This document shows positions 28,172 to 58,708 of a stretch of DNA of 64,000 nucleotides, piece by piece; position 1 is the stretch's first letter; every line of letters starts with the position of its first letter. The stretch comes from Margaritifera margaritifera (lineage: Eukaryota; Mollusca; Bivalvia; Unionida; Margaritiferidae): NCBI GenBank assembly GCA_029931535.1, contig JAQPZY010001347.1:1523501-1587500 (forward strand). Direction: 5' to 3'. The position numbers and the translations under genes are program-made. Under the pieces are notes generated by a model. That model searched no databases. It was given only the letters and a program-made list of their open reading frames with translations, and had not been told where the DNA came from.

Positions 28172-28389
28172 ATACCATATATACTCTGTTATAAGTCAAG
28201 TCCAACTGCAAGCAACTTAGACCCTGATCTGCCATCATATAATGTGCTGGCAGATCAGGGTCTCAGTTTGTTCTACTGATTACTCCTAACAGACTGCATA
28301 GACCCAGGTCTCCTAGCACATTATGCAACAGCAGATATGGGTCTGTGCAGTTTGCAGTGACTTGTCTTATAATTGAGTATATACTGTAG
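28172..28389 (+). mobile_element. Two-hairpin foldback MITE, copy 2
   Basis: Termini ATACCATATATACTC and GAGTATATACTGTAG form an inverted repeat. Two internal near-palindromes are built on AGACCCTGATCTGCCATC and AGACCCAGGTCTCC. Order and spacing match the copy at 54167. Confidence 0.75.
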
Positions 28390-37062: not shown

Positions 37063-37406
37063 GGGGGGGGGGGGGTATTGAGCCTCAAGATTTTCCAGGT
37101 GGGCTCTCCAGCCTCAAGGGAAATTTAACATGGTGGGGCACTTGGGACTCAAACGGGAAATGAACATGGGGGCCTATCCAGCCTCAAGGGAAATTTAACA
37201 TGGCGGGGGCACTTGAGACTCAAACGGGAAAATGAACACGGGGGCCTATCCAGCCTCAAACGGGAAAATGAACATGGGGCCTATCCAGCCTAAAACGGGA
37301 AAGGAACGGGAAAAGGAAAACAGGGAGGGAGGGATAGAAGTATGGCAATAATGAAAATTAATCTTTTCTTGAAAAATGGGTGGCCCTGAAAAAGGGCCAT
37401 TGGAGT
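37063..37406 (+). repeat. Left terminal inverted repeat
   Basis: It begins with a run of 13 G, then TATTGAGCCTCAAG, and runs to GGCCATTGGAGT. Inside are three or four partial tandem units built on CCTCAAACGGGAAAATGAAC and GGGGGCCTATCCAG. The inner 25-45 bp contain the histone-type stem-loop and downstream element in the leftward sense. It matches 52559-52905 in reverse complement with a few indels. Confidence 0.9.
37362..37398 (-). terminator. Histone-type mRNA 3' end, left TIR
   Basis: Read on the minus strand: CCAAT, then GGCCCTTTTTCAGGGCC (37398-37382), ACCCA, and CAAGAAAAGA (37371-37362). The 6-bp stem is perfect; the loop has one extra T relative to the canonical four-base loop. The layout matches replication-dependent histone genes: stem-loop bound by SLBP, ACCCA, then a downstream element that pairs with U7 snRNA. 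It follows the leftward terminal gene. Confidence 0.75.
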
Positions 37407-37678
37407 CATGTGAACCAATCCAGTTAACATAGAAGACATCTCCTGGAGGGTCTTCTTTTCCTTAGACTTCGTCTGACTTCTGGACCGTAAATCAATACCC
37501 GCTTCAAGCATCCTTGTCGTTCCACATAAATTCTTCATTTCCAAATAGCGGTCTCGGTAATTTTCGTAATCATCCATGAGGCTTTGACATACATGGGATA
37601 GTCTGAGTTGAAGAGCATTCCCGAGATGATGGTCGATGACTCTACGCTAGTCCACATCTTTTTCTTTTGTTTCTTCAT
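37400..37678 (-). pseudogene. Left terminal gene, outward-reading, unknown helical protein
   Basis: A frame reads leftward from about 37676 and enters the TIR. A TAG at 37647 interrupts it; from 37577 it is open to 37290. The protein would be polar and helix-rich (DDYENYRDRYLEMKN, SQTKSKEKKTLQEM). The nearest ATG (37678) is in another frame, so the start is also damaged. A TATA-like TATATA lies upstream on this strand (about 37726-37731). The histone-type 3' end lies at the point where it enters the TIR. I recognise no family. Confidence 0.5.
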
Positions 37679-37699
37679 GAGTGGTCTTGGAGAAAACCG

Positions 37700-37990
37700 G
37701 TGAAACTCTATGAGACAAGCGGTGGTATATACACCCTAAGAGCGGATCGAAATGGATTGAAATGAACTACCAATCCAAGTGCGCGTTACAAGTGGGTAGG
37801 TTTTTCTTCCAATGGGAAGAGAGTGGGGGTGTGATGTCATCTTGAGTACAAAGACATCACAGCATTCGTAGGGATTTTACTTTGGACAGCCTAAGTATGA
37901 CGGAGACCATGAAGACCATGTATTGGGGTGAGCCTGCGACGACAGCAACGAATGCCGTAGTGAACTTCTGACCTGAAAATTTTAGTTTAG
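37700..37990. promoter_or_regulatory. Divergent intergenic region between the two left genes
   Basis: This region separates a leftward gene from a rightward gene. It holds the minus-strand TATATA at 37726-37731. Repeated CATCACA-like motifs (GATGTCATCTTGAGTACAAA, GACATCACAGC) lie near 37838-37865. No clear plus-strand TATA box is seen. Confidence 0.4.
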
Positions 37991-37993
37991 ATT

Positions 37994-38521
37994 TTGGGGA
38001 TTTTTTTGTCTTCTCAAGAATTTGTACCTGAAACTACCACAACTGCTGCTATACCACCAGCCTCTTTGCCTGTCATGGACGATTTTAAAAAGAGGCAACA
38101 AAAAGAATTAGAAAAATTTGTACAGCATCAGAGAGAAGCAGAAGAAGTTTTTCTTCAGCAAGACGAGGAAAGAAGAAAGCAAGAAGAAGAAATAAGAAAG
38201 TTAGAAGAGGAGAAATTGGAAGAATGGAAGGAAGAGAGCGAGGAAAACAAAACGGTGAGTATGTTGCAAGACATTTGAGCGGAGTTAAAAAATCTGAGAA
38301 AAATGTATCAGATTTCTTTAACACAACCTAAGAGAAAAAGACCATCACAGGCCAAACATTCGAAACCCATCACTACTAGTGAGATGCTACCACCACTACC
38401 ACCACCACCATTCACTACTACTACTACTACCACCAAAGCAGCAGCAGGAGGAGGAGGATTAATAGGAGTTGGTCGTGGAAAGGGATTGAGACAGTTGAAG
38501 CTGATCATGTCCAGTCCATAA
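37994..38521 (+). pseudogene. Coiled-coil protein gene with histone-type 3' end
   Basis: One frame runs from about 37994 to TAA at 38519, interrupted only by TGA at 38276. After a Thr/Pro-rich start comes a strongly charged coiled coil (about residues 35-85, runs of E/K such as RRKQEEEIRKLEEEK). A Pro/Thr-rich hinge follows, then a Gly-rich end (AAAGGGGLIGVGRGKG). It could be a virion or scaffold protein, but no family is recognised. The gene's own ATG is uncertain. The stem-loop begins 27 nt after the stop, as in histone genes. Confidence 0.6.
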
Positions 38522-38548
38522 GTTTGTTTAACAAACAAACACACCAAC

Positions 38549-38584
38549 GGTCCTTTTCAGGGCTACCCAGATCTCCAGAAAAGA
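38549..38584 (+). terminator. Histone-type mRNA 3' end after the coiled-coil gene
   Basis: CCAAC, then the stem-loop GGTCCTTTTCAGGGCT (38549-38564, two G-T wobbles, loop TTTC), ACCCA (38565-38569), then CCAGAAAAGA (38575-38584). Spacing and every block match metazoan histone genes. It lies outside the TIR, so it is independent of TIR duplication. Confidence 0.75.
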
Positions 38585-38776
38585 TAATAATCCAATTTGC
38601 CAAAAAAACAAGTAAAACTTTAAAGCTCATCCTTGGTTTGTGTAAGAGTGAGTGCGTCCATACTCTAAAAACAAAAAACCAAAAGACACTTTTTTTTCCA
38701 TTCTGGTCTATTCTCTTTTTTTTTAAAAAAAAAAAAATCACAATGAACATAACACCACACTCAAAAAGTTCATTGT

Positions 38777-39215
38777 TCACTGTCTGTCTCTCTTGTTCTT
38801 GAATTTCTTCACAGGGATCAAGGGTTCTTTTTCTTCTTCACTGTCTTCCAGTCGTCTAGCTTTCTTGCTTTTCTTGACGACAGGGATAGGTTCTTCTTCT
38901 TCTTCTGAGACTGAAGATCCCTCTGCTTCCTCCCTCTCTGGTAGGTTCTCTTGTTTCTGAGGACACTCGGAAGACCGATGTCCTTTTTCTTGACAATGAT
39001 AACACGTATCTTTTGTTTTGTCTCTCTTTTCGTTTCTTTGGTTTTGTTGACGTTGTGGACATTCTGGAGCCCAATGTCCTTTCTCTTGGCAGATATAGCA
39101 AGTATCTTGACTTTTATCTCTCATTCGTTTTCATTGAGGACATAATGAAGCCCAATGTCCTTTCTTTTGGCAGATATAGCAAGTATCTTGACTTTTATCT
39201 CGAGTGCAGTTGTGT
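38777..39215 (-). pseudogene. Zinc-knuckle (CCHC) protein gene
   Basis: Reading leftward, three tandem units each start with a K-x-D-T-C-Y box and carry a CX2CX3GHX4C knuckle: CYICQKKGHWASLC, CYICQEKGHWAPEC and CYHCQEKGHRSSEC. An acidic and basic tail follows (SVSEEEEEP, KKSKKARRLEDSEEEKE). A TGA at 39131 separates the first knuckle from the other two; the rest (39124-38777) is open. CCHC knuckles bind single-stranded nucleic acid. The gene lies opposite in strand to its neighbours. Its 5' end is unclear. Confidence 0.65.
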
Positions 39216-39347
39216 CGAAATATCCTGTCGTCTATAGCCTATTAGTATTTGACAGGTTTATTAATTAGATTATATCTTCTTGACTCTTCCATCTTCACAG
39301 TTTGAAAGTGGAATAACAAATAGTGATTCTGAGGGTAGGAAGGTCTC

Positions 39348-39355
39348 TATATATA
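39348..39355 (+). promoter_or_regulatory. TATA box of the polymerase gene
   Basis: TATATATA lies 56 bp before the ATG at 39404, typical spacing for an RNA polymerase II core promoter with a short leader. Confidence 0.6.
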
Positions 39356-39403
39356 GGGAGAGAGCCTGTGTGAAACTCAATAAGATTCAAGTAAGACATC
39401 AAG

Positions 39404-42400
39404 ATGAAAAGATCACACCCAATCCATGAGAAAACAGAAGAAGAAGAAACGAAGAGGCCATGACGACGGAGACATTCCGTGCCGCCTGAAACACCGCTCG
39501 ATGAAGTGCTAGCTCAAGTCCATGCTAGCGATTTCGAAGAGGAGATGAGTGAGCCTGAAACCACACCACCTTCTACCAAACCCAAAGAATCCATTACCCC
39601 TCACCAAGAAAGTCCTACCGTGGCTCCCGAAAATTACTATCGTATTAGAGAGACGCAAAAAATAACCTCTAGAAAATTTCGAACTACGGCTTACACTCGC
39701 ACCGTCCACTTCAAAGACTTCAAGTCTGAAGTGCATCCCGAGAAAGCTGCAGGGTTCATTACCGATTTGTGGGGTTCTGTGTTACAGAATTTGAAATACA
39801 AAGCGGAGCCAAAGAGGACGATCGGTTGAGACTGTCTATCCATCACGACTGTTTGAAGTCGCCTGTCTGGATCGAGTTCAGCACCCAGCAGAATTAACAC
39901 CAGCCAAAGTCATGACCAAAATAGAACACGTTCAACAATCCAATGAAGAGCTTGCCATCACGGATGGAAAGGCCACACTTCACATGACTCATGTCTCCCC
40001 TCCTCGAGGTAGCGGACGAAGCAGGAAAGCGTTACTGGTGGACGACCTTCGGAGTACCAAACAGAGTGTCGTCCAAATCGACAATTCTCAGGACCAGATG
40101 TGCTTGGCCCGTGCCATCGTGGTGGGGCGAACGTATGCCGACAAGAACGAGACCGCAGAATGGAAAAGAGCCTGGAAGAACATTCGACAATCGGACAGAG
40201 CCAAATAACGAAACAAAGCAGAACTCCTGTTATGACAAGCAGGCATCCCCAAAGACACCGTGTGTGGCATTTCTCAAATGCAACAACTTCAAGACATCTT
40301 GGCTCCTGGATACACTTTGAAAGTACACCCTCAAGAAGTGCGCGGAGATCTGCTGTTTCGAGAACCCGATTTCCCCGAGGGAAAATACATTCACATCTAT
40401 CACCATCGAGAACATTTCAATGCCATCACCAGTATCACAGGATTTCTAGGATACTCTTACTACTGCGAGAAATGCGAGCAAGGATTTAACAATCGAGAGT
40501 GACACATTCAATGTGGAGAGAGATGTCGGGGCTGTTTAGCTGCCAAGCCATGCCTTCCTGAACAACACGTCCATTGCGAGATGTGTCGACGAACTTTTGT
40601 CAGTCCCTCTTGTTACGAACAACATCGCAGGACACAAGGGCACCAACAAAAATGTGCTTGCGACTTATTGAAATTGTGCTCCACGTGTGGACAACTGATT
40701 CAAACCAATGACCCCAAGAGACACACTTGTACCGGAAAAAAAAGATAACACATTTGCCACCAGATGGTGGATTATGATCATCAATGTTTCATGCAAAAGT
40801 ATGACAATACACTGAAGAAAGAATTAAAGAGTGATCAGAAGAATAACAAGAACAAAGTGGATTTCATCTTTTTTTATTTTGAATGCACGCAAGAAACAGG
40901 CATTCACATTCCCAATTTCTGTGTCGCTCATCAGGCTTGTGAGAAGTGCATCCAAGAACCTATCCACGTTCACTGTCCTCATTGTAGTAGGATTCCAGGA
41001 GGACTTGAAAAAATCTTTCGTGGTCCTAACACTTTGTCCAAGTTTGCTCAATAGATTTTAGACTCTACCGACGACACTTGGAGCGAAGAGGACATTCAAC
41101 GTTACGGAGACTGTCATCGCTATGCGACCGTCATGACTCACAATTTCTCGGGATACGATGGACAGTTTTTGTTAAAATATTATTCGCTACAAGGTACCAA
41201 ATGCCCCCATGTCACCATGAACGGAGCCAAACTCATCTACACGCAAGTGGGACAAGTGCAATTCAAAGATTCCATGAGTTATTTGGCCATGCCTTTGAGT
41301 CGAATGAATAAAACATTTGGTACGACAGAGATGGCCAAAGGATATTTTCCCCACTTCTTCAATATGGAAGCCAATCAACACGCCGCACTACCGCATTTGC
41401 CTGACGTTAACTATTACAACCCCGACGGAATGCACCCCGAACACCGAGAAGCCTTTCACACTTGGTACCACGCTCACCAGTCAGAACCTTTTGACTTCCA
41501 AGAAGAAATGCTGAAGTATTGTCGATCCAATGTGGACATTTTACGCCGTTGCTGTGGAAAGTTTCGACAGTTATTTCTAGATCACGGAGACATCGATCCT
41601 TTGAAGGAAGCGTGCACCCTACCTAAAACCTGTACCTTAGTGTACACCAAAAACTTCATGCCCAATAACGAACTAGCCATCATAGACCCGAACACGTCTC
41701 TCTTTGCCAGTCGTCAATACTCAGCCAAAGCTTTGTGTTGGCTCCATTACTTGAGTCAAAAGGAAGACAAATGGATACAACATGCCAGAAACGGAGGAGG
41801 AGATGGTTGGGATTTAGAAAACCCTCACACGGTGTACGAATTTCAGGGCTGCTTGTTTCACGGATGCCCTACCCGTTTTCCTCAACAAGACCTGAAAAAT
41901 CCTTTCACGGGAGCCAGCATGGAAGAGTTGTACGAACACTTACCAACGACGACTAAAGTTAGAAAGTCAAGGATACCAAGTGGTAGAAATGTGGGAGCAC
42001 GAGTACGATCAACGTTTGAAAACCGATCCAGAATTTAGGAGCATTGCCGAAAGTTACGATGTGGTCGACATCGAACCTTTGGATCCACGCCACAGTTTGT
42101 TTGGAGGACGAACCAATGCCACTCGAATCAAGAGGAGAAGAAATCAAATACATCGACGTGTGTTCGTTGTATCCTTGGGTGTGCAAATATTCTCAATTTC
42201 CGACCGGACACCCTGAAATCTTGACAGAACACATCGACGTGGAACACATTCGTCAATACGAAGGATTGATCAAATGCAAAGTCTTACCCCCGACAAACTT
42301 GTACCATCCTATCTTACCTCATCATTGTCAAGGAAAACTGATGTTTCCTTTATGCCGTACGTGTGCCAAAACATGCAACCAAGATCACCCCTGTCACCAC

Positions 42401-43409
42401 ACGGAGGAAGAACGCGCTTTGATAGAAACTTGGTCAGCGCTGAATTGTTTCGGGGTCTGGATCGAGGATACCGCTTGTTGAAAGTGTACGAGATCTGGCA
42501 CTTTCCAACCACAGCACAATACCAAAAGGACGACGCCTCGAATCCAGGCATTTTCTCGGGGTACGTCAACCAATTTTTAAAACTGAAACAAGAAGCCAGC
42601 GGCTATCCCTCGTGGTGTCAGACTCCGGAAGACCAAGTCCAATTCAAAGAAGAGTACTGTACCATCTAAGGGATCACTTTGGAAGACGTAGAAAAGAACG
42701 AAGGAAGAAGATCGTTTGCCAAAGTCATGTTGAATTGTTTGTGGGGAAAAATGGCACAACGTCCGATCTTGACCAGGACGGAATACTTGACCGATCCTAG
42801 TGCCTACTTTAAACTAGTGGACGACAAAAGTAGACTGATGAAACACGTAGAAATCGTCCGTGATGATTTGATCTTAGTCAATTTCGAAGAAGAATGCAAG
42901 TTTGTACGCCCCGACAAGTTTAGCAATGTGGTCATTGCAGCTTACGTGACAGCCCATGCTCGCTTGAAATTGTACGACGAAGCTTTAGAAGTCTTGGGAG
43001 ATGTGTGTACATCCATCGCCCTGGTTGCCCACATCCTACCATCCAAGGAGATTGTTTAGGAGCCTGGACGGACGAGCACCCTCAAGAAACCATTCTGAGT
43101 TTTGCCAGCGGTGGCCCTAAAAATTACGGGTACCAATACTGAGACCAAGAAGTCCAACTTCACACCAAATGCAAATTCAAAGGATTGACCCTGAACTATC
43201 GAACCAGCCGAGTGGTCAACTTTGAGGTTTTGAAAAATGCTTTGCTGTCTGGACAAGTGGAAGACTTTCGAGTGAAAACGTTAGAACCTCACAAGATCGT
43301 ACGGTTACCTAATCATCAAACCGTCAGTCGTCCTGTAGGAAAAGTTTACCAAATTGTGTACCAGAAACGAGTGAGACTTTGCCTTACGGACACGCCATCT
43401 TCAGTATAA
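39404..43409 (+). pseudogene. Protein-primed type B DNA polymerase (Polinton), heavily broken
   Basis: This enzyme replicates the element's DNA. The N-terminal domain (39404-40250) and a Cys/His-rich zinc region (about 40450-40745) precede the exonuclease domain. Exo I at about 40870 reads FFYFECTQ, with Tyr where the catalytic Asp belongs. Exo II (THNFSGYDG, 41136) is intact. Exo III reads YCRSNVDIL (41516) with Asn at the usual Asp. Polymerase motif A (DVCSLYP, Asp at 42155) and motif B (KVMLNCLWGK, about 42721) are present. Motif C (D-T-D), expected near 43000-43050, is not readable in any frame. Stops (for example 39461) and at least five frame changes break the gene. Confidence 0.85.
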
Positions 43410-43410
43410 A
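43405..43410 (+). promoter_or_regulatory. TATA box of the BIR gene
   Basis: TATAAA overlaps the end of the polymerase frame, 77 bp before the ATG cluster at 43482. Confidence 0.5.
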
Positions 43411-43481
43411 AAAGAGACCACTTCCAAGCCTAACCATTCATTAGGACTTCAAACGTTGACCGAGCAAGAAGAAAAAAGAAG

Positions 43482-44023
43482 ATGATGATGATGAATACTC
43501 ATGCCACCCACCCACTGAGTGAGGAATCTAGTGTGGACTCCAAGGGCGATCACCACCTGGAGTGCGATGCAGTGCCATGCGACGAGATGGATGCCATGCG
43601 CTTTGCAGCTTTGCAGCACGACCTTACCGCCCCACTAGCGATGCAGGACGCCCTTTCTTCTTTATTGGGGATGCTAAATGTGTCCCTATCTGTGAATGTC
43701 ATCCCTACATGGGTAAAGAATTGACACTACTTGTGGCTTTGGCTGGCTATTCCAAGTTTGAAAAGTGATATCAGACGTTCAAAGATAAGTGGCCTAAATA
43801 TCTGCAAGGACCTACTTCCAAAGATTTAGCCAGAGCCGGATTTATCTACTTGGGAGAAGGAGATAAAGTTCAGTGTTTCAGTTGCGGTGTGAGACTTCAC
43901 CAATGGGAGCCTAATGACTCAGCTTACTTGGAACATGCTAGATGGTCTCCGCACTGTCAGTACTTGCCCTTAGTTGGTGAAGAGTACGCGTATGATGAGC
44001 TGGATGCTAGTTCCAAGAAGTAA
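43482..44023 (+). pseudogene. BIR-domain (IAP-like) protein gene
   Basis: BIR domains bind caspases or IAP antagonists; viral IAPs block apoptosis. A frame running from 43562 to TAA at 44021, with a single TGA at 43766, encodes a complete BIR. It has the WPKYL start, an LARAGFIYLGEGD core, then CFSC...W...D...EHARWSPHC, which fits CX2CX16HX6C zinc binding. No RING finger follows, so it is a one-BIR protein. The ATG cluster at 43482 is in a different frame, so the N-terminus is shifted or the true start lies further on. Molluscs have large IAP families, so capture from the host is plausible. Confidence 0.8.
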
Positions 44024-44024
44024 C

Positions 44025-44461
44025 ATGTCGGATGATACTTTACAAGAATACATTCATGGTTTGCCTTTGGAGTGCGAGAACGTATTTACAGAGAGTTGGT
44101 CCAGATAAAGGTGAAACGTAAAGAACAGTTACATCCTTTACGACATACACGTTATAATCATTGGTATCTGAATGCTATAAGAAGTTTAATTGCTTTGAAA
44201 AGGTTCAAATGGTCAGACATTGATCAAATAAGAAATTGGGCTTGTAAGAGATTGGATGGCACCACCTACCATGTGGGAGTGATACAGCAAATTCCATGGA
44301 ACGAAGCGGAGGAAAAAAAAGTGACCAACTTACAACTTACCAAAAACGTTTACAAGAAGTGTCACCTCAAGACGAAATGCCTGAACATCTTAGATATCCT
44401 TTACCCACCGATTCCATTTGGCAAGTGTATGACTATTTCGTCACATAGAAGACTAGCTTAG
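44025..44461 (+). pseudogene. Unrecognised basic protein gene, frameshifted near its start
   Basis: An ATG at 44025, one base after the BIR stop, opens a short frame (EYIHGLPLE). The main frame (44072-44461) continues as a basic, helical protein (RERIYRELVQIKVKRKEQL, IRNWACKRLDG). The LPLE-RERIYREL pattern resembles the start of an F-box-like helix, but that is weak. The first 70 bp are duplicated at 44460-44535, where the reading frame differs by one base. Function unknown. Confidence 0.45.
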
Positions 44462-44560
44462 AAGAGCGCATTCGTGGTTTGCCTTTGGAGCTGCGAGAAT
44501 GTATTTACAGAGAGTTTGTCAAGTGAAACGCAAACTCAAAGTCATTTCTTGATTTTTAAG
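44460..44560 (+). repeat. Partial duplicate of the 44025 gene start
   Basis: It shares GGTTTGCCTTTGGAG, TGCGAGAA-GTATTTACAGAG and GTGAAACG with 44055-44125. It keeps one extra base at the point where the first copy changes frame. It ends within a few codons at TGA. Confidence 0.7.
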
Positions 44561-44600
44561 CTATGCTTACTTCCAAACTGTAAGAAGAGTGATTCTGGGA

Positions 44601-44630
44601 AGAACCTTTCATAGTAGGTGCTCTGGAGTA
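44601..44630 (-). repeat. 30-bp perfect inverted match to 50782-50811
   Basis: The segment 44601-44630 is the exact reverse complement of 50782-50811 at the broken end of the minor capsid gene. Elsewhere the two surroundings differ. Confidence 0.9.
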
Positions 44631-44666
44631 GTCTATCACAAAAGATACCAGCCTTGAGAACCTGGA

Positions 44667-44674
44667 TATAAAAA
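44667..44674 (+). promoter_or_regulatory. TATA box
   Basis: TATAAAAA lies 52 bp before an ATG at 44719; the ATG at 44681 is too near to be used from this promoter. Confidence 0.5.
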
Positions 44675-44680
44675 CCCACC

Positions 44681-45088
44681 ATGACAGGACCGTTGTCTTC
44701 ACTCGTGAAACGTATTCCATGGAAGAAAGTCGACGATCGTGTTCAGATCTTAGAGGATTATAAACACTTGATATAGGAACTGTTTCCATTGAATTTTGGA
44801 TGCTATGCCGTGTGTGTCTTCATGACTACTTTTCTTGGATTTCGTTTTCCAGGACATTCGTTGTGGACTATTTTGGAGGAACAGTGTTGTTGTTGGTGGA
44901 CTAACCAAAGACATTCATGCTTTATCGACACATGAAAGACAAATTGTGCTCAAAGTGTTGAGACTTGTGATGAACATGAGTTGTACAGCTTCGTGTGAAG
45001 AAGACATTTGTCAAACTTTATCCACCCTTCACACGTTTCAAGAAGTGTGCATCGCTAGTTGGTTACACCAACAACTTTACGATTAGAA
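44681..45088 (+). pseudogene. Unrecognised gene, broken
   Basis: No frame is open throughout. Pieces include a hydrophobic stretch in one frame (CYAVCVFMTTFLGF, about 44803) and a helical open frame at 44835-45086 (LSTHERQIVLKVLRLV). I looked here for an adenain-type protease, which adintoviruses often encode, and did not find its His or Cys boxes. Confidence 0.3.
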
Positions 45089-45513
45089 AGATGTATGTGA
45101 CTGGAAAAGTGTTGGTTTCGATGCTTGGCTACAAGGAGTGGCACAGTTTGCCAAAAACCTGGCACGTCACTAAGTTTCCAAGACCAAAAGAAGTCAACCA
45201 CTTGAAATCCAAGTTCACCACCACCACCACGACACTCCAAGCTCAAAAAGAAAAAGAAGACCACACCATTGTCGTCGTACAAATAGAAACACCTCAGGAA
45301 CAAACCCCCTTTCCGTCAGAGACATTTCATTCTTCCACCAGAACAGAGACCAGAATACCACCAGTGCGTGTACACTCCATTCGTAGGACACACCTTCATC
45401 CAGAATGTTGTACATTTACTTGTTTATACAGAACTTTGATTCTTTTAGTGGTAGCCTTATTGTTGTATCTCACCATTTTTGCGGTATGCATTTTTGTCCT
45501 TCACGACTTGTAA
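44995..45513 (+). CDS. Membrane protein with C-terminal anchor
   Basis: The frame is open for 172 codons to TAA at 45511. The first 75 residues are basic and aromatic (TRFKKCASLVGYTNNF). A Thr-rich spacer (TTTTTTL) and a polar middle follow, then a strong C-terminal membrane helix (TLILLVVALLLYLTIFAVCIFVL). That is a tail-anchor or single-pass layout. The start is uncertain because the upstream gene overlaps in another frame. A polyadenylation signal follows 40 bp after the stop. No family is recognised. Confidence 0.5.
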   Translation: MKKTFVKLYPPFTRFKKCASLVGYTNNFTIRKMYVTGKVLVSMLGYKEWHSLPKTWHVTKFPRPKEVNHLKSKFTTTTTTLQAQKEKEDHTIVVVQIETPQEQTPFPSETFHSSTRTETRIPPVRVHSIRRTHLHPECCTFTCLYRTLILLVVALLLYLTIFAVCIFVLHDL

Positions 45514-45550
45514 AATATGTTTTTTGTTTTTTGTTGGTTGTTTTACAAAC

Positions 45551-45556
45551 AATAAA
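45551..45556 (+). terminator. Polyadenylation signal
   Basis: AATAAA lies 38 bp after the TAA at 45511, so this gene appears to use ordinary cleavage and polyadenylation, unlike the four genes with histone-type ends. Confidence 0.55.
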
Positions 45557-45569
45557 CGTGTATGAAACC

Positions 45570-45576
45570 TATAAAA
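45570..45576 (+). promoter_or_regulatory. TATA box of the ATPase gene
   Basis: TATAAAA lies 54 bp before the ATG at 45624. Confidence 0.6.
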
Positions 45577-45623
45577 TGCCTTGTGTCTTTTGTCTTCTTC
45601 TCAAAATTATTCCTACCTAAGTC

Positions 45624-46361
45624 ATGGCTGCATCTTCTTCCTCTGCCTCGTCTGCTTCTTCTTCTGTGGTCAAAGTGATCGACGAAAAGTTAGATCGTCC
45701 TAGTTGGGAAGCTTTGTATCTGCGCCATCCTTTTAACATGTTGATTGCTGGACCCAGCGGTTCAGGCAAAACCGAATTTGTCAAACGTTTGATCGAACAC
45801 AAATCTCATCTGTTCGATCGTCCTCCTCAACGCATCGTGTGGTGTTACAAAGAGTGGCAATCATCTTACACTTTACTTCGTGAAAGTCAAGGAGATGCCA
45901 TTTCATTTGTGGAAGGCATCCCTCACGAAGACGATGGGATCGTGTCTGACATGAGTCAAACACATCTGGTCATCTTCGACGACATGTTAGGAGAAGACGA
46001 CGAAGAAATTAAACTTTGGTTTACACGAAAAGGACATCATCGGAATGCCAGCATCATTTACATTACTAAAAATTTATTTCAACAAAGTAAAGCCCATCGG
46101 ACCATCAGTCTCAACGCTCATTACGTGGTGTTGTTGAAAAGCCCCAGAGACAAATCTCAAGTGCAAGTGTTAGCCAAACAGTTAGGCACTCCTTGGCTGA
46201 ATTATGCGTACGACGATGCCACTCAAACACCTCATGCGTATTTACTCATCGACTTAAAACCGACCACTCCTGACTATTTGAGATTTTGTACCCCATTGTT
46301 TCACCATTGGTGCCAAGAAGGAGGTCCCGTCATTTGCACGTCCCCCTCGTCCACTCTCTGA
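45624..46361 (+). CDS. A32/FtsK-type genome packaging ATPase
   Basis: This enzyme pumps viral DNA into preformed capsids in Polintons, adintoviruses and giant viruses. The 245-codon frame is intact. A Ser-rich start is followed by HPFNMLIAGPSGSGKT, a perfect Walker A (about residues 37-52). Walker B is LVIFDDM (about residue 112), and an IIYITKN sensor-type strand follows near residue 150. Length is normal for the family. The ATG follows a TATA box, and the gene ends at TGA 46359. It is the only core gene with no lesion. Confidence 0.9.
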   Translation: MAASSSSASSASSSVVKVIDEKLDRPSWEALYLRHPFNMLIAGPSGSGKTEFVKRLIEHKSHLFDRPPQRIVWCYKEWQSSYTLLRESQGDAISFVEGIPHEDDGIVSDMSQTHLVIFDDMLGEDDEEIKLWFTRKGHHRNASIIYITKNLFQQSKAHRTISLNAHYVVLLKSPRDKSQVQVLAKQLGTPWLNYAYDDATQTPHAYLLIDLKPTTPDYLRFCTPLFHHWCQEGGPVICTSPSSTL

Positions 46362-46372
46362 AAGGAAAAAAC

Positions 46373-46380
46373 TATAAAAA
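46373..46380 (+). promoter_or_regulatory. TATA box of the basic core gene
   Basis: TATAAAAA lies 44 bp before the ATG at 46417 and 12 bp after the ATPase stop. Confidence 0.6.
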
Positions 46381-46416
46381 CATCTACTGCATCATTTCTT
46401 TCTCACAGTCTTCGAG

Positions 46417-47270
46417 ATGACTTCCTTTCAAGCTCATCCTTCTGCCAAATTGATTCGTGCCTTGTATGGCATCAGTCGCGAAAAAAATGCACGAGTCCGT
46501 GCCCGTTTGTTAGAACTTAGTCTCAAAGAAGTGTTACAATGGTTTACTTTGACGGCACATCAATTACTGCAAGGCATCATTCACATCCCTCATCAAACCC
46601 AACATTTTTTTTAAAAACATAAAGTGGCGTTGTCACACTGGCTGATCCTAGAATCGATCCACGCACTAAAAAACAAATCATTTTAACCCCTGGAGGGAGC
46701 GGTTCTTTAGGAGGGGTCATGATTCGTTCACTTTTGAAATGGGATCCTAATGCCCAAACCAAAAAACCAAAAACCAAAAAGAAAAGCCCCTAGAAGAAAA
46801 GCCCTAAGAAGAAAGCCCCAAAGAAAAAGAAAAGCCCTGCCAAGAAAACACCAACCACTGCGACCCGCAAGAGAGGTACTGCTGCGAGGACGCAAACGTA
46901 CACCCGCAAGCCATGACAGGCAGCAGTGACGAGGTCTCCTTCTCCTGCGTCCACATCGTCATCACCTCCCTTCATGATGATGCCTGCCAAACTGGACTTA
47001 AGATCCGTGTTTCCTAATTTGACGCAAAAATGGAAACCCATTTAGAAAGTCACCACTTCGGCTGATCTGGCCACTGCAGCGGCCGCTAAAAAAGTACCGT
47101 CCCCTAAAACCAAAGTCCAATAGAGAACCGGCGTGTTACAAAGTTTAGTGGATTTATCCAAAGAAGAACTGAGACGATTTAGTCCATTGAAAACACCTCA
47201 ACGTCGAGTGATGCCTGTCATGAAGATGGTACGTCGTGCAGACAATCAGTGGAGACGTGTTCCAGTATAA
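46417..47270 (+). pseudogene. H1-like basic virion core protein
   Basis: The N-terminal frame (46417-46614) gives a helical 65-residue start, then shifts at a run of eight T. The rest lies in one frame to TAA at 47268, with four in-frame stops (46791, 46914, 47043, 47121). It has a Gly-rich segment (TPGGSGSLGG), then a Lys/Ser/Pro tail (KKSPKKKAPKKKKSPAKK, interrupted upstream by a stop) like histone H1 C-termini and adenovirus core proteins. A conserved-looking end follows (LVDLSKEELRRFSPLKTP). It likely condensed the packaged DNA. Confidence 0.65.
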
Positions 47271-47272
47271 AA
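47266..47272 (+). promoter_or_regulatory. TATA box of the PX-like gene
   Basis: TATAAAA overlaps the stop codon of the basic core gene and lies 62 bp before the ATG at 47328. Confidence 0.55.
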
Positions 47273-47327
47273 TAGAAGTGTGACCTCCCGGACACCACAG
47301 TTCTATTTTTTGCTCCTGACATCTAAG

Positions 47328-47750
47328 ATGGCTCCCAAACGTGCACATCACCACCACCACTAAAAGAAGAAAGGCAAAACCAAAAAAGGACTTCCACCTC
47401 ATCTGGCTAAACATTAGGACGTCTTGTCTGTCCTGACCAAATCCAATCCTCCCATGCGAAAACAACTCATTCAAACAGCCCCTAAAGAAATCATCGATAC
47501 CGTGTGCGAATGTTGTTTAAACGTCTTGAAAGGAACAGTACCTTTGTCCAAGATACAGAAACAGAAATTAGGCAAACATCGGAACGTTCTTCGCCAAATA
47601 GTCTAAAAGAAAATACCTCTCCATCAAAAGAAAAAAATGTAGGTGCAACGAGGAGGATTTCTACCCATGCTGATAGGACCGTTGTTAAAAATAGCGGCTC
47701 CTCTGTTAGGAATGATTGCTGGACCGCTTTTAGGAGGTGTCATGCGATAA
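47328..47750 (+). pseudogene. PX-like minor core protein
   Basis: PX is the adintovirus counterpart of adenovirus core peptide pX. A single frame runs from ATG 47328 to TAA 47748 with four in-frame stops (47361, 47415, 47604, 47640) and no frameshift. The start is basic (MAPKRAHHHHH, then KKKGKTKKG). The middle is the conserved segment with TVCECCLNVLKGTVPLS. The end is hydrophobic and Gly/Pro-rich (LIGPLLKIAAPLLGMIAGPLL), typical of the family. Confidence 0.7.
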
Positions 47751-47751
47751 A

Positions 47752-48486
47752 AGGACGGGAAGAAAAGAAGATAAAAAGGACACCCTTCTCTGGAAAGACC
47801 ACACACTTGTACCTTTGGATGAAATGGAAGGACGAAAACTGACTTTAGTTCCTTACAAATGATGGATGGAATTCCATCGTTGGAACAAACAACGGATACC
47901 TCATTTACCTCCCAATCCCAATCTCCAAGAGATGTCACAGTTACAACAAGAATTACAAGTGCTGATGGATCGAAGCAATTTGTCAGAAACAGAAAAATCG
48001 CAACGGTACGGGCAACTCTTACAACGTCTTCAACTCTTTCACCAGAAAGCTGTAGACGAAACAGCTCAACCCACTCCGAGAGATTTCAAAGCCCAGATGA
48101 AAAGCCAACGTAAAGTCACCACCACTAAAACAGACACTGCCTCGGGGATGACAGAAGAAGACGATGAGCCCTGAGAAGTGTTTCAAGCTCCGTCTGCTCC
48201 TTCCATCTCTAGTAAGATTGCTGTGGCCTTGTTGACACCCTCACCTACCCCTCATCGAGAAAAAATGAAAGATTGGGTTCATAAGAGGATTGCCACTCCT
48301 CCTTCAGCAGAAGAAAAAAAGAAAGAAAGCAAGACCGAAGTGAAATAAGACACCACCACCAAGAAGAAACCTGCCATCACCCCTTCTTCACTACCCACTC
48401 CTGTGGCTCGTCGAACGCGTCAAGCCACTTCGTCCAAACCTCACGACACCCAAAGTAGTAGCATCGAACAGTGGGTGACTTATTGA
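47752..48486 (+). pseudogene. Polinton virion-associated gene (LVPxD-type), broken
   Basis: One frame runs from about 47775 to TGA at 48484 with in-frame stops at 47860, 48172 and 48346. It starts with a HTLVPLDEMEGRK-type segment common to a small Polinton gene next to PX. A Gln/Leu-rich helix (LQQELQVLMDRSNL) and low-complexity Ser/Thr/Pro/Lys sequence with TPSPTPHREK follow. No ATG is clear. Function is unknown; position suggests a minor virion or scaffold component. Confidence 0.5.
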
Positions 48487-48497
48487 GGAGTCAAACC

Positions 48498-49608
48498 ATG
48501 GAGAAACTTTTAGCTAGCCTTTACTACAATCCTGGCCATGCTGCTGGTTACGGAGGAGTTCAAAAATTGTATCGGGCTGCCAAAATATAAATTGAAAAGT
48601 GTATGTTTGCCAGAAGTACAACGATGGTTACAAGAACAATCGATGTACACGTTACACAAAACCATTTGACGAAAATTTTCTAGAAGTCCAACTACAGTGG
48701 AGGGCATCGATCATCAATGGCAAGCCGATTTAGCTGACGTCTCTCATTTGACAGCCTACAATCATGGTCACAAATATTTGTTTTGTGTCATTGACATGTT
48801 TTTCAAATTGGCTTGGGTCGTGCCTTTGACTTCTAAAAGCAGCACCGAATTGGTACGTGCCTTAAAACTGGTGTTGAAACAAAGTGGTCGTCACCCTTTG
48901 CGATGGCAAACCGACAAAGGCACCGAATTTCTAAACCAAGCTTTTCAAAAAGAATTGAAACAAAGACACATTCATTTTTTTACCACCGAAAATCCTGAAA
49001 CCAAAGCTAGTGTCGTGGAACGTTTTCAAAGAACTTTGAAAGAACGCATGTGGAAATATTTTACACATCAACACACTCTCAAGTACATTGACGTGTTACC
49101 ACGTTTAGTCAAAGCGTACAATCAATCGTATCATCGAAGCATCGGATGTGCCCCCGAAAAGGTCACCCCTGAAAACGAAGTGAAGGTGTTTGATTGATTG
49201 TTTGGTACACCGCAGAGGAGACATCAGAAGAAAGCCCTGCTGCTTAAGACGGGAGATTGGGTTCGCATTGGAAAAATCAAACACACTTTTGACAAAGGTT
49301 ATTTACCCAACTGGACCACCGAATTGTTTCGTGTCACTGGACCCGTGTGTGGACGTGATCCTCCCATCTATAAATTGGAAGACATGCACGGAGAAGTGTT
49401 AAAATAAACTTTTCACTTACCTGAGTTACAACGAGTGACCAAAAAAGAAGATGACTTGTACGACATCAAAAGTATTCTCGAACGAAGAACACGCAAAGTG
49501 GGCAAACATCGAGTGGAAGAAGTCAAAGTGCGTTGGAAAGGATATCCTCCTAGTTTTTATTCTTGGATTGCCGCTTCCCAAGTCGTCAACTATAAAAAGA
49601 AGAAGTAA
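48498..49608 (+). pseudogene. Retroviral-type (rve) integrase with chromodomain
   Basis: This enzyme inserts the element into chromosomes. ATG 48498 follows the previous stop by 12 bp. The N-terminal part (SLYYNPGHAAGYGG) changes frame near 48585, with a TGA at 48667. The catalytic core keeps all three acidic residues: WQADLADV (first Asp), WQTDKGTEF (second Asp) and the Glu of ASVVERFQRTLK. A TGA at 49195 and a TAA at 49405 lie before the C-terminal domain and a chromodomain (SILERRTRKVG...VRWKGYPPSFYSWI, ending TAA 49606), which in other elements guides insertion to modified histones. Confidence 0.85.
49591..49598 (+). promoter_or_regulatory. TATA-like box inside the integrase end
   Basis: TATAAAAA lies within the last codons of the chromodomain, only 23 bp before the ATG at 49614. 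It is too close for that ATG unless the leader is nearly absent, so its role is uncertain. Confidence 0.35.
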
Positions 49609-49613
49609 CCAAC

Positions 49614-50048
49614 ATGCCGTTCAACACAGCCACGACCTCTACTCCTTCGCAGAGTTCTTTTCAAGAATTACACAAACAACCTTTGTGGGTGTGGTGCGGA
49701 GAACGTGTGCCTAAAAATCAAATCGTCTTTTTCTGCCAAATCTTTGTGGTGTATTGTGTCATTGGAGCAGCCATTGCCAATTTGAGTTTGCAACAAGGGG
49801 ACAAACAATTGTGGACCATTTTACTCAGCAGTTGCATCGGTTATCTTCTACCCAGTCCCTCCTTGAAATTTACGACGACGGAGAGTCACAACAACAACCA
49901 CCACAGCAACCAGCACAACGGTACGGCCAATGCCAGTCCACCTTCTTCCAGTCACCACAACAGCAGTCCTCTGTTGGAACCGTTTGAACATCATTCTCCT
50001 GTGCACTCAAGTGACTCCTCGGAGACCAGAACCACCTTGGAACTATGA
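49614..50048 (+). CDS. Two-helix membrane protein of Polintons
   Basis: The frame is intact over 144 codons. Membrane helices lie at about residues 42-60 (IVFFCQIFVVYCVIGAAIA) and 70-84 (WTILLSSCIGYLLPSP). The WxxLLSSCxGYLLPxP block is characteristic of a small conserved Polinton/adintovirus protein of unknown role, presumably in the virion membrane or assembly. The tail is Ser/His/Asn-rich. Its TGA (50046) overlaps the next ATG (50045) as ATGA. Confidence 0.7.
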   Translation: MPFNTATTSTPSQSSFQELHKQPLWVWCGERVPKNQIVFFCQIFVVYCVIGAAIANLSLQQGDKQLWTILLSSCIGYLLPSPSLKFTTTESHNNNHHSNQHNGTANASPPSSSHHNSSPLLEPFEHHSPVHSSDSSETRTTLEL

Positions 50049-50826
50049 ATAACCAATTGTATTTAACTTTACCTAGTGACAGTTCCATGGATGTGTTTCC
50101 CAACAACACCTTATGTTGTTTCACGGCCAAATTACCTCAGGCCATCCAATTGGATCACGAAGCTCATTGGGAAGTAGGTTTGGTAGAAATAATTCATCCT
50201 ACGCAAGCCAAGAACATCGACGCAGGTCAAAACACTTTCATCGTGGATATCCTCAACGAACAAGTGCAACAACACTTGGACACCCATGAACCTGGCCTTT
50301 ACGAATCCAAAAAGGTATTCCCTGCCACTCCTCCCGTGACCAGCTATACCATGAGAATTCCTGAGGGGCATTATTTTAGTGCTCGAATTTGGTGGACACG
50401 ATTGCGATCGTCTTCGAGGCCCAATTTGCCAAAGCCTTAGAGAAAGCCAAGAAATCGGTACAGATCGCTTACCATTCTGTGGCACACCGTCTCTTGATAC
50501 TATTTTCGGATGACAAAACATTGGCCATCACTTTTTCTCCTGGGTTGTATGCTAGTTTGGGTGGAAATAAAATGTATCCTAATAGAAAAGTTCAAAGCAA
50601 CTCAGGATTCGCCAAGGGTTTTTGCCACCCTATCGAATTGAACATTGGACTGAATTTAATGTTTTTGTACTCAGATGTGGTGGAGTACAACGTGGTGGGA
50701 TACACAGCCATTCCGTTACTGAGAGTCATTCCTTTCAAAGTGGATTCTGCTGTTGCCGCGTATGAAGAAGGTGGAAATATGTACTCCAGAGCACCTACTA
50801 TGAAAGGTTCTGGTATGTGTTTGTAG
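50045..50826 (+). pseudogene. Minor capsid (penton-type) protein, frameshifted and truncated
   Basis: Single jelly-roll penton proteins form capsid vertices. The start (LYLTLPSDSSMDVFPNN, then WEVGLVEI) is the signature of Polinton minor capsid proteins. The frame changes near 50389 and continues through ITFSPGLYASLGG and a YNVVGYTAIPLLRV block. The family's final strands should follow; here the frame runs into a 30-bp segment also found inverted at 44601 and stops at TAG 50824. The major capsid gene that normally follows is absent. Confidence 0.8.
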
Positions 50827-50839
50827 AGTGTTCGTATAG

Positions 50840-51035
50840 AGTGTGTTTGTGGTATGTGTTGGATAAAAAAAAAAAAAAAAAAAAAGGGTTGTGTGGTGTG
50901 TGTTTGTGTTTTGTTAAAAAAAATAAAAAAGGGTTGTGTGGTGTGTGTTTGTGTTTGATAAAAAAAGAAAAAAATTTAAAAAATTTGTATGTAAGGGGTG
51001 TGTGTGTGTTTTGATAAACAATTTTTATCAAAAGT
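50840..51035. repeat. Low-complexity GTGTGTTTG / A-run repeats
   Basis: Three tandem copies of GGGTTGTGTGGTGTGTGTTTG plus an A-rich run, then TTTTGATAAACAATTTTTAT with its complement, a short hairpin. The same block recurs at 51610-51800. Confidence 0.75.
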
Positions 51036-51255
51036 ATTTTCTTTTAGGTCCGCGTACTGGGTCTGTGTTTTGGGGGTAAGGGGTGGTGGAGTGCAGAATC
51101 AGCGAAGCATAGAATGACATCATATGGATGACATCAGACACGGGTAGTGTGGGTGATGTTTTTTTAGCTGTGAGGGATGTTTTCCTTCACGTCCGCGCTT
51201 CCAACATATAAAGTGACGCCTTCCCCCGGTCGAGCTACCCCGTTGATTCATCAAG
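51035..51255 (+). promoter_or_regulatory. Promoter module of terminal gene 1
   Basis: It carries GGTCCGCGTACTGGGTCTGT at the left, GTTTTCCTTCACGTCCGCGC, then CATATAAAG (TATA at 51207-51213), 49 bp before the ATG at 51256. The same blocks in the same order occur at 51808-51958. Shared upstream boxes (TCCGCG repeated twice per module) are candidate factor sites. Confidence 0.65.
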
Positions 51256-51531
51256 ATGAATAAGACAGAAATGATACGACAGATCCGAGTGCATCTAGAG
51301 GTAGTGTGGCACCTCCTAAGGGAAATGGAGAAGAGGGAGGAGGAGGAAAAAGAGAAGAAGGAGCCCATCAGGCCGCATCAGATGATGACGGAGGATTGGG
51401 AAACTGAAGCGACCCATCCTCCGTCGGCTTTCCTCATCTCCAAGAAACAACGACAATGGAGCAGTAAAGCTAGATGGAGTGGGAGCTGTGCGGCATGTAG
51501 GGCTGGACAAGGGAGGTGTCCACACCTCTAG
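51256..51531 (+). CDS. Right terminal gene 1, unknown, with histone-type 3' end
   Basis: The frame is open for 91 codons from an ATG 49 bp after a TATA box to TAG at 51529. The first half is a charged helix (REMEKREEEEKEKKEP). The second half is polar and ends Cys-rich (GSCAACRAGQGRC). The frame may shift late, since the end looks unlike the start. A stem-loop lies 20 nt after the stop. No family is recognised. Confidence 0.5.
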   Translation: MNKTEMIRQIRVHLEVVWHLLREMEKREEEEKEKKEPIRPHQMMTEDWETEATHPPSAFLISKKQRQWSSKARWSGSCAACRAGQGRCPHL

Positions 51532-51550
51532 ATGCACTTAAAAACCCAAA

Positions 51551-51585
51551 GGCCCTTTTCAGGCCACCCATTTAACAAGAAAAGA
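51551..51585 (+). terminator. Histone-type mRNA 3' end after terminal gene 1
   Basis: The stem-loop reads GGCCCTTTTCAGGCC (51551-51565), one G short on the 3' arm. ACCCA (51566-51570) and CAAGAAAAGA (51576-51585) follow. The next 20 bp (TTAATTTTCATTATTG) also match the TIR copies, so this unit and the right-end unit are paralogous tandem duplicates. Confidence 0.7.
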
Positions 51586-51609
51586 TTAATTTTCATTATT
51601 GCGATATAT

Positions 51610-51805
51610 ATGTGTTTGTATGTGGTGTGTTTGTGTTTGTCTTCCCACTTCAAAACAAATTCCATTCCCTGGTATGTGTTTGTGTTTGATAAAAAAAAAT
51701 AAAAAATAAAAAATGGATTGTGTGGTGTGTGTTTGATAAAAAATGAAAAAAATGGATTGTGTGGTGTGTGTTTGATACATTTTTTTATCAAAAATACTTT
51801 CTCTT
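51610..51805. repeat. Second copy of the GTGTGTTTG / A-run block
   Basis: It shares TGTGTGGTGTGTGTTTGATA and the terminal TTTTTTATCAAAAATACTTT hairpin arm with 50840-51035, confirming a tandem duplication of the whole unit. Confidence 0.75.
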
Positions 51806-51958
51806 TGGTCCGCGTACTGGGTCTGTGTTTTTTTTAGGTGTGATCAGATTTTGTATGTATGTTTTTTTTGGAAAGGAATGTTTTCCTTCACGTCCGCGCT
51901 TCCAGCATATAAAGCGGCGCCTTCCGCAGTCGCACCATTCACAATTCACTCAACAACA
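51806..51958 (+). promoter_or_regulatory. Promoter module of terminal gene 2
   Basis: GGTCCGCGTACTGGGTCTGT, GTTTTCCTTCACGTCCGCGC and CATATAAAG (TATA at 51908-51914) repeat the module at 51035. The ATG at 51959 is 45 bp after the TATA box. Confidence 0.65.
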
Positions 51959-52558
51959 ATGAATACCTAGAATTATTGCAGGAAGTCTGGGATGTGATGG
52001 TGAGTGTGGAGTCTTTGGTGGAAAGGATGGAGTGTTGGTGGAGATACCCGGCCACCAAGTCATACGTCACCAGCCAACTGGTAGCTCTCACCTCAGCGAG
52101 GAGGCTGGTGAACGATGTCTTGGTGGAGGAAATCCAAAAGACTTCTTTGGTCCCTTGTTGTAAGGGGTTCATCAAGACGACCCTAGACTTACTGGAAGGG
52201 GTGGAATACTTCCTAAACCAAGTCCAGGAAGATTGGTGGATCTATCCCCCCCCCCCCCCCAGTAGCGTCCGGCACGAAGTGGTGAACTTCTACATTGTGA
52301 AATTACTTCTCAGGAAATTATTAGAGAAGTAAGTTGCCCACATCAAGACCTTGTGGGCACTAGAAAGAACCAAGAAGGAGCAGGCCAAGAAAGAACAGGA
52401 ATTCCAGCGCCTGAATTTGAACTGGATGAAAATCCAGGACAAGTTTAGGCAAATGGGACATCCCGACTGGCTACCTCATCCACCAACACCCCAGAAGAAA
52501 AAAAAAGACCAACACCCTCCTGGGCTTCCTGACCCAATGTTGGAGAAAACATTAACCA
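51959..52558 (+). pseudogene. Right terminal gene 2, outward-reading, unknown helical protein
   Basis: The ATG at 51959 is followed at once by TAG in its own frame. The long frame is offset by one base and runs 51961-52332 (TAA), then continues in the same frame into the TIR (52674). It encodes helices (EVWDVMVSVESLVERM, LVALTSARRLVNDVL), a Pro run encoded by a C homopolymer near 52248, and a charged helix (KKEQAKKEQEFQRL). It mirrors the left terminal gene: outward-reading and ending in the TIR stem-loop. A run of nine A near 52498 may mark another frameshift. Confidence 0.5.
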
Positions 52559-52905
52559 ACTCCAATGGCCCTTTTCAGGACCAACCATTTTTCAAGAAAA
52601 GATTAATTTTCATTATTGCCATACTTCTATCCCTCCCTCCCTGTTTTCCTTTTCCCGTTCCTTTCCCGTTTTAGGCTGGATAGGCCCCATGTTCATTTTC
52701 CCGTTTGAGGCTGGATAGGCCCCTATGTTCATTTTCCCATTTGAGTCTCAAGTGCCCCCGCTATGTTAAATTTCCCTTGAGGCTGGATAGGCCCCCATGT
52801 TCATTTCCCGTTTGAGTCTCAAGTGCCCCACCATGTTAAATTTCCCTTGAGGCTGGAGAGCCCACCTGGAAAATCTTGAGGCTCAATACCCCCCCCACCC
52901 ACCCC
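52559..52905 (-). repeat. Right terminal inverted repeat
   Basis: This is the reverse complement of the left terminal repeat, from ACTCCAATGGCCC at its inner edge to a C-rich run (to 52905). It carries the same internal tandem units (GTTCATTTTCCCGTTTGAGG, GGCTGGATAGGCCCC) and the same stem-loop near its inner edge. Confidence 0.9.
52567..52602 (+). terminator. Histone-type mRNA 3' end, right TIR
   Basis: The stem-loop reads GGCCCTTTTCAGGACC (52567-52582, one C-A mismatch, loop TTTC). AACCA and CAAGAAAAGA (52593-52602) follow. It is the TIR counterpart of 37362-37398 and serves the opposite terminal gene. Confidence 0.7.
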
Positions 52906-54166: not shown

Positions 54167-54381
54167 TACTGTATATACTCACGTATAATCCAGGTCCAAA
54201 TGCTAACAAAATAGACCCTGATCTGCCGTTGCATAATGCGCCGGCAGATCAGGGTCTATGTTGTTTGTTCTACTGATTAGTCCTTACAAACTGCATAGAC
54301 CCAGATCTGCCGGCGCATAATGCGTCTGGGTCTATGCAGTTTGCAGTTGGTATCGGATTATACGTGAGTACATATGGTAGT
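54167..54381 (+). mobile_element. Two-hairpin foldback MITE, copy 3
   Basis: This is the best preserved copy. Outer inverted repeats TACTGTATATACTCACGTAT and ATACGTGAGTACATATGGTA enclose two palindromes, each of about 50 bp, centred on GCATAATGCG with arms AGACCCTGATCTGCCG and AGACCCAGATCTGCCG. The two palindromes differ at one arm position (CCTGATC against CCAGATC), symmetrically in both arms, so each stays paired. Confidence 0.8.
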
Positions 54382-58357: not shown

Positions 58358-58708
58358 TTGCATTTTTGCAACATAACTAAAGTATTTGATCATGTTTCGC
58401 ACAAAGGATTGTTACACAAACTTAGTGACTATGAAGTAAGAGGACACATGATAAACTGGTTTTTTGATTATTTATCATTAAGAAGACAAAGGGTTCTTTT
58501 AAATGCAGATGCATCATGCATGAAATACATCAGAGCAGGCATCCCACAAGGATCCATACTGGGTCCACTACTTTTTATTACTTATATTAATGATACTGCA
58601 GAAGGTTTGTCTAGCATAAGAAGACTATGTGCTGACAGTTCTATGTCTTACATTTTAACAGATATTAATATTATTGAACACCAAATGAACCAAGACATAG
58701 AAAGATAA
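58358..58708 (+). pseudogene. Reverse transcriptase core fragment
   Basis: It begins KVFDHVSHKGLLHKL, the RT motif A region. IPQGSILGPLLFITYIND (motif B) follows. The usual FADD catalytic box reads LCADSS, so the second catalytic Asp is lost. It ends at TAA 58706. Confidence 0.75.

Follow-up and report, generated by a model that had tools for sequence, protein, structure and literature searches.

Predicted histone-type mRNA 3' ends on small genes near both ends of a decayed Polinton-type element in Margaritifera margaritifera

The DNA analyzed here is a 64-kb window from the bivalve Margaritifera margaritifera (GenBank assembly GCA_029931535.1, contig JAQPZY010001347.1, positions 1,523,501 to 1,587,500 of the forward strand; coordinates below count from the first letter of this 64,000-nt stretch). 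It contains a Polinton-type element of about 15.8 kb that is decayed at least in its PolB gene. Within the element are four sites, S1 to S4, that resemble the 3' ends of replication-dependent histone mRNAs in having a hairpin with a CCAA flank, an ACCCA motif and a purine-rich downstream element (Table 1). The Polinton-type assignment, proposed in an earlier note on this DNA, was upheld because PolB, an A32-like packaging ATPase and an rve integrase core were all recognized with Pfam and inverted repeats are also present.

All four sites were recovered at the coordinates and on the strands given in the earlier note. In a search of the window with 4227 Rfam families, the family of the histone 3' UTR stem-loop, RF00032, matched at exactly these four places, spanning 37403-37357 (-), 38544-38588 (+), 51546-51590 (+) and 52562-52607 (+), and no other match to it appeared with E values up to 5. 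The three-part signal claimed earlier, a hairpin followed by an ACCCA-type motif and a downstream element, was observed at each site, but the 16-mer hairpin GGCCCTTTTCAGGGCC put forward with it is exact at none. S1 has an extra T in the loop, the 3' arm of S3 lacks one base, and the stem of S4 contains a mismatch. The canonical geometry (6-bp stem, 4-nt loop and GG/CC base) was found in one site of four, S2, where the six stem pairs are all retained and two of them are G-U pairs. ACCCA follows the hairpin exactly in three of the four sites, with S4 reading AACCA. The downstream element is CCAGAAAAGA at S2 versus CAAGAAAAGA at S1, S3 and S4, with AGAAAAGAT common to all four, and the CCAA flank of the Rfam consensus is present at every site.

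Table 1. Positions of the four hairpin sites and of the genes, promoter-like blocks and repeats of the Polinton-type element, in window coordinates
Feature	Position	Strand	Description
S1	37362..37398 (37398-37362)	-	hairpin GGCCCTTTTTCAGGGCC, ACCCA, CAAGAAAAGA; 5-nt loop; RF00032 33.8 bits, E 5.9e-6
S2	38549..38584	+	hairpin GGTCCTTTTCAGGGCT, ACCCA, CCAGAAAAGA; 6 bp, 4-nt loop; RF00032 26.9 bits, E 2.2e-3
S3	51551..51585	+	hairpin GGCCCTTTTCAGGCC, ACCCA, CAAGAAAAGA; 3' arm one base short; RF00032 31.4 bits, E 4.3e-5
S4	52567..52602	+	hairpin GGCCCTTTTCAGGACC, AACCA, CAAGAAAAGA; one stem mismatch; RF00032 28.5 bits, E 5.5e-4
Outward-reading frame	37293..37646	-	118 aa, putative coding; extends across S1 into the left repeat; without a Pfam match
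Gene upstream of S2	37991..38521	+	one frame in two pieces, in-frame TGA; no Pfam match
Gene B	51256..51531	+	uninterrupted 91-aa frame; ATG 49 nt after TATA box
Gene C, longest piece	51997..52332	+	111 aa from inner ATG; frame resumes after stop 52330-52332
Promoter-like block of gene B	51156..51224	+	contains CATATAAAG; aligns with 51859-51925 at 87% (69 nt)
Promoter-like block of gene C	51859..51925	+	copy of the gene B block
Left terminal inverted repeat	37073..37405		outer edge uncertain (G-run)
Tandem array	inside 37073..37405		~36/70 nt; inside left terminal inverted repeat
Right terminal inverted repeat	52560..52892		begins just 5' of S4
PolB pieces	41055..43056	+	PF03175, three stretches in different frames, broken
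A32-like packaging ATPase	45621..46361	+	open frame of 245 aa; PF04665 32.1 bits, cut-off 22.8
Integrase core (rve) piece	48670..49197	+	PF00665 40.1 bits, cut-off 32.6

The four sites are unequally related to one another. S1 and S4 correspond to each other in the left and right arms of the terminal inverted repeat, where the identity of the arms stops 8 nt 5' of the hairpin, and S3 has 45 nt in common with this repeat at 93%. S2 can be aligned to S1, S3 and S4 over 42 to 46 nt only, at 78 to 80%. Because S1 and S4 lie in inverted repeats, S3 is a near copy of them and S2 has diverged, the sites would represent about two lineages and not four independent gene ends, and the earlier wording of histone-type ends on "four genes" overstated their independence. 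The distance from the end of the hairpin to AGAAAAG is exactly 12 nt in all four, although the 7-nt spacer within it varies. When S2 was compared with the other sites, the 5' flank agreed at 4 of 5 positions, ACCCA at 4 to 5 of 5 and the downstream element at 9 of 9, versus 2 to 3 of 7 in the spacer and 11 to 13 of the 36 nt that follow. What the sites have in common therefore lies in the functional elements of a histone 3' end and in how these are spaced, a pattern that we read as a probable trace of past function.

Shuffled sequence did not reproduce the four sites. A three-part pattern, defined as hairpin plus ACCCA with at most three errors and AGAAA within 25 nt, occurs four times in the window, and 2131 dinucleotide shuffles of the element contained it 0.0019 times on average, with a maximum of 1; when the AGAAA condition was dropped, the shuffle mean rose to 0.036 and the maximum to 3. 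A pattern based on the Rfam-consensus hairpin also occurs four times in the window, a count not reached in any of 362 shuffled versions of the 64 kb (mean 0.127, maximum 3). Together with the RF00032 matches, both shuffle controls argue that the sites are real and not products of chance.

Cruder scans were less selective. With a maximum of three mismatches allowed, a fixed 20-mer pattern returned S1, S2, S4 and a position at 37698 (-), four matches against 0.12 expected, and missed S3. Likewise, a simple scoring scan gave 37698 (-) 37 points, equal to S4 and above S1 (36), and did not list S3. The candidate hairpin at 37698 (-) was set aside despite this S4-like crude score, as it is without an RF00032 match and has a different loop. 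It is recorded here as a weak histone-like hairpin (37698-37679, minus strand) located 5' of the left outward-reading frame. In viral_contigs, scanned as a control for specificity, a linear motif that matches S1 and S2 retrieved 44 loci, of which 21 are near-copies of one another, and none of the 44 exceeds 4 of 6 stem pairs. A module pattern that matches S2 only had no occurrence in genome_contigs. Two further patterns yielded 2 loci and 0, and since neither matches the four sites described here they are little informative; by eye, those two loci are longer palindromes without the downstream element.

With regard to gene context, it had been claimed that each site lies in sense orientation at the 3' end of an open frame. 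This is the case for S2 and S3, which are located just after stops, whereas the gene ends at S1 and S4 are indistinct. Two of the sites had further been placed 20-27 nt after a stop; this fits S2, which begins 27 nt past the stop ending at 38521, but not S3, which begins 19 nt past the stop of gene B ending at 51531. The longest frames next to S1 and S4 stay open through the hairpin, so that a clean stop-to-hairpin distance was unobtainable for these two sites. The short stop distance at S2 and S3 is like that of histone genes, as are the TATA box and short uninterrupted frame of gene B. Unlike histone genes, the adjoining frames are without a Pfam histone match (none was obtained for the pieces adjoining S1, S2, S3 or S4), the setting is mobile and virus-like, and three of the four hairpins are damaged. 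The predicted product of the gene upstream of S2 is charged and, by eye, coiled-coil-like with a proline-rich end. Searches for protein relatives gave none for gene B (E 0.01) and none for gene C (E 0.001).

The neighboring genes B and C have in common their promoter-like block (Table 1) and a 62-nt block at the 3' end (90%); in their coding parts, no alignment was obtained at the DNA level. Six other TATA boxes, of the form TATAAAA, were found on the plus strand of the element; they are unlike the CATATAAAG of genes B and C, and one of them belongs to the ATPase, sitting 54 nt 5' of its ATG. None of the ATPase, PolB and integrase pieces has a histone-type signal next to it. It was also observed that a GT-rich and A-rich stretch is doubled, at 50894-51071 and 51670-51831, the two copies being about 74% alike and preceding the promoter-like blocks of genes B and C, respectively.

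Taken together, we consider S1 to S4 to be probably genuine mRNA 3' ends of the replication-dependent histone type, carried by small accessory genes near both ends of the Polinton. The best evidence for function comes from the fixed 12-nt spacing, the conservation pattern of S2, and the common promoter and end of genes B and C. In the histone pathway, SLBP binds the hairpin, the U7 snRNP recognizes the downstream element and CPSF73 cuts, leaving an mRNA whose 3' end is the hairpin and not a poly(A) tail, and this processing is coupled to S phase (described in parts of PMC9756948). By analogy, host SLBP would have bound the hairpin in transcripts of the small terminal genes of an intact element, and the U7 snRNP would have paired with the purine-rich downstream element. 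Cleavage after ACCCA would then have released a short, non-polyadenylated mRNA, produced and stable chiefly during S phase. Placement in the inverted repeat would let a single signal end both outward-reading terminal genes.

Several observations weigh against this reading. The RF00032 scores of all four sites (26.9 to 33.8 bits) are under the curated gathering score of the family, 34 bits, and three of the sites (S1, S3 and S4) are copies of one another. These same three carry hairpin lesions in the present copy. Furthermore, differences between the arms of the inverted repeat number 3 among the 22 positions of the hairpin plus ACCCA (37378-37398 and 52567-52587) and 6 among the remaining 312 (Fisher p 0.016), an excess that appears as the reverse of present-day constraint. 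For the present copy the most fitting reading is that of a fossil; the functional claim concerns its intact ancestor. In addition, the parts of S2 that match the other sites are those through which S2 was detected, and the contrast between these parts and their surroundings is by itself no proof of selection. This detection bias applies less to the exact 12-nt spacing and to the complete match to AGAAAAGAT, a sequence not spelled out in the Rfam consensus.

The distribution of poly(A) signals is also partly adverse. AATAAA occurs 147 and 154 nt past S3, and AATAAA or ATTAAA is found within 300 nt of four of seven stops, those at 45513, 49197 and 50826 and that of gene B, with none within this distance of the stops of the PolB piece, the ATPase and the gene upstream of S2. 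A division of the element's genes into two end types is thus suggestive, not clean, because AATAAA follows gene B and does not follow the ATPase or the PolB piece.

Of the other explanations, one is that the element captured a host histone 3' region once, perhaps together with a histone gene, and that recombination and homogenization of the inverted repeats spread it without any working role. The near-copy relation of S1, S3 and S4 and the present damage to the hairpins would agree with such an origin. So would the finding that adomaviruses carry histone-like genes, one of them, from a clam dataset, joining such a gene with adintovirus-like virion proteins (described in parts of PMC11071296), which indicates that histone genes do enter such viruses. 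S2, however, has diverged in its spacer and downstream flank yet retains the working parts and their spacing; the promoter-like block and the end common to genes B and C surround unrelated coding DNA; and both orientation and stop distance fit at S2 and S3. We therefore regard inert capture as unlikely. It is rather improbable that the transcripts were mostly polyadenylated farther downstream, with the histone module serving as an alternative end as in some human histone genes. The AATAAA copies past S3 would suit a dual mode of this kind, and the human gene H2AC18 shows dual processing (parts of PMC9756948), but in the 2 kb that follow S1 and S2 neither AATAAA nor ATTAAA is present, and after S4 the first such signal is at +369, beyond the element.

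The hairpins might instead have served some other purpose, either as a DNA feature belonging to the inverted repeats, as their location at the inner edge of both repeats might suggest, or as a signal like that of Mimiviridae, whose transcripts end at hairpins and are then polyadenylated (described in parts of PMC4402537). S2 and S3 lie outside the repeats, however, and the loop, the ACCCA and the downstream element at fixed distance are histone features that would be superfluous for a generic palindrome. A generic palindrome was rejected since the agreement falls in histone parts at fixed spacing, and another role for the hairpins appears very unlikely overall. Chance resemblance, which the scores below the gathering score and the site-like crude score of the RF00032-negative 37698 (-) might suggest, was rejected as extremely improbable, being contradicted by RF00032 at four sites, by two shuffle controls and by the zero occurrences of the S2-matching pattern in genome_contigs.

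In its PolB, A32-type ATPase, rve integrase, inverted repeats and length, the element is like the Polintons or Mavericks, which are related to adintoviruses. It departs from the descriptions of these elements found in the literature search in its predicted histone-type ends, and here a capsid and a protease were not recognized and a target-site duplication was not seen. The Pfam scan took in 25 pieces inside the element and 5 outside. For PF03175 the three PolB stretches scored 52.1, 42.2 and 24.0 bits, two of them above the cut-off of 25.8; by its Pfam family this polymerase would be of the protein-primed type. No match to a capsid or an adenovirus-type protease was obtained among the 25 element pieces with Pfam or among 10 pieces with NCBIfam, the pieces being short or broken. 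NCBIfam gave one weak match on its 10 pieces, under the cut-off, and a search of the PDB with the piece at 44980-45510 found nothing. The terminal inverted repeats are about 333 nt long, and their arms differ at 9 positions over 334 columns. A 6-bp target-site duplication is expected for Polintons and Mavericks. None was seen by eye at the edges of the element, and because both outer edges are G-runs no duplication was readable there.

The ATPase has 312 protein relatives, which among the 120 listed are up to 90% identical. One of these (P0008) is filed under an assembly of Candidatus Thiodiazotropha taylori but is probably host DNA. This bacterium is a symbiont of clams, and the record may therefore represent bivalve DNA. 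The viral, phage and prokaryotic sequence collections yielded no relative: viral_contigs was queried with the ATPase alone, with a 36-row ATPase alignment and with the PolB and integrase pieces, genome_contigs with that alignment, and phages with the ATPase.

Elsewhere in the window, a dispersed short repeat with an internal palindrome around ATAGACCC...GGGTCTAT was noted at 2695-2840, 28209-28354 and 54203-54351, with pairs of copies 81-84 nt apart in these three places. An open frame at 58358-58705 resembles, by eye, a fragment of a non-LTR reverse transcriptase (GIPQGSILGPLLF).

Among the open-licence papers listed, assessed from titles and the starts of abstracts, none describes histone-type ends in a Polinton, adintovirus, Maverick or virus; this also holds for the papers on histone stem-loops with transposable elements, on SLBP with viruses or viral mRNA and on RF00032. 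The words stem-loop and polyadenylation have no occurrence in the available text of PMC11071296 and PMC9952930. Two further known systems come close. Viral transcripts ending at a hairpin, here predicted, are a likeness to the hairpin-guided polyadenylation of Mimiviridae, but there poly(A) is added by viral enzymes in the cytoplasm, whereas the signal described here is that of the host's nuclear histone pathway. Adomaviruses present a similar link between histones and animal DNA viruses; theirs consists of coding genes, and the one proposed here of an mRNA 3' end.

A broader proposal, which we offer tentatively and hold to be possible but somewhat short of probable, is that some animal Polintons or adintoviruses have two classes of genes. 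One would have TATAAAA promoters and ordinary ends, and the other, a terminal cassette, its own promoter and a histone-type end. The accessory genes in the cassette would be on only while the host copies its DNA, with SLBP and the U7 snRNP acting as a sensor of S phase. To our knowledge, mRNAs ended by the histone pathway are nearly confined to histone genes. If the ends described here are genuine, the mRNAs of a virus-like element would be ended by the host histone pathway, and there would be a direct reason for such mRNAs to escape poly(A)-selected libraries. They would also provide a simple cell-cycle switch for a virus group with a little-understood life cycle in animals.

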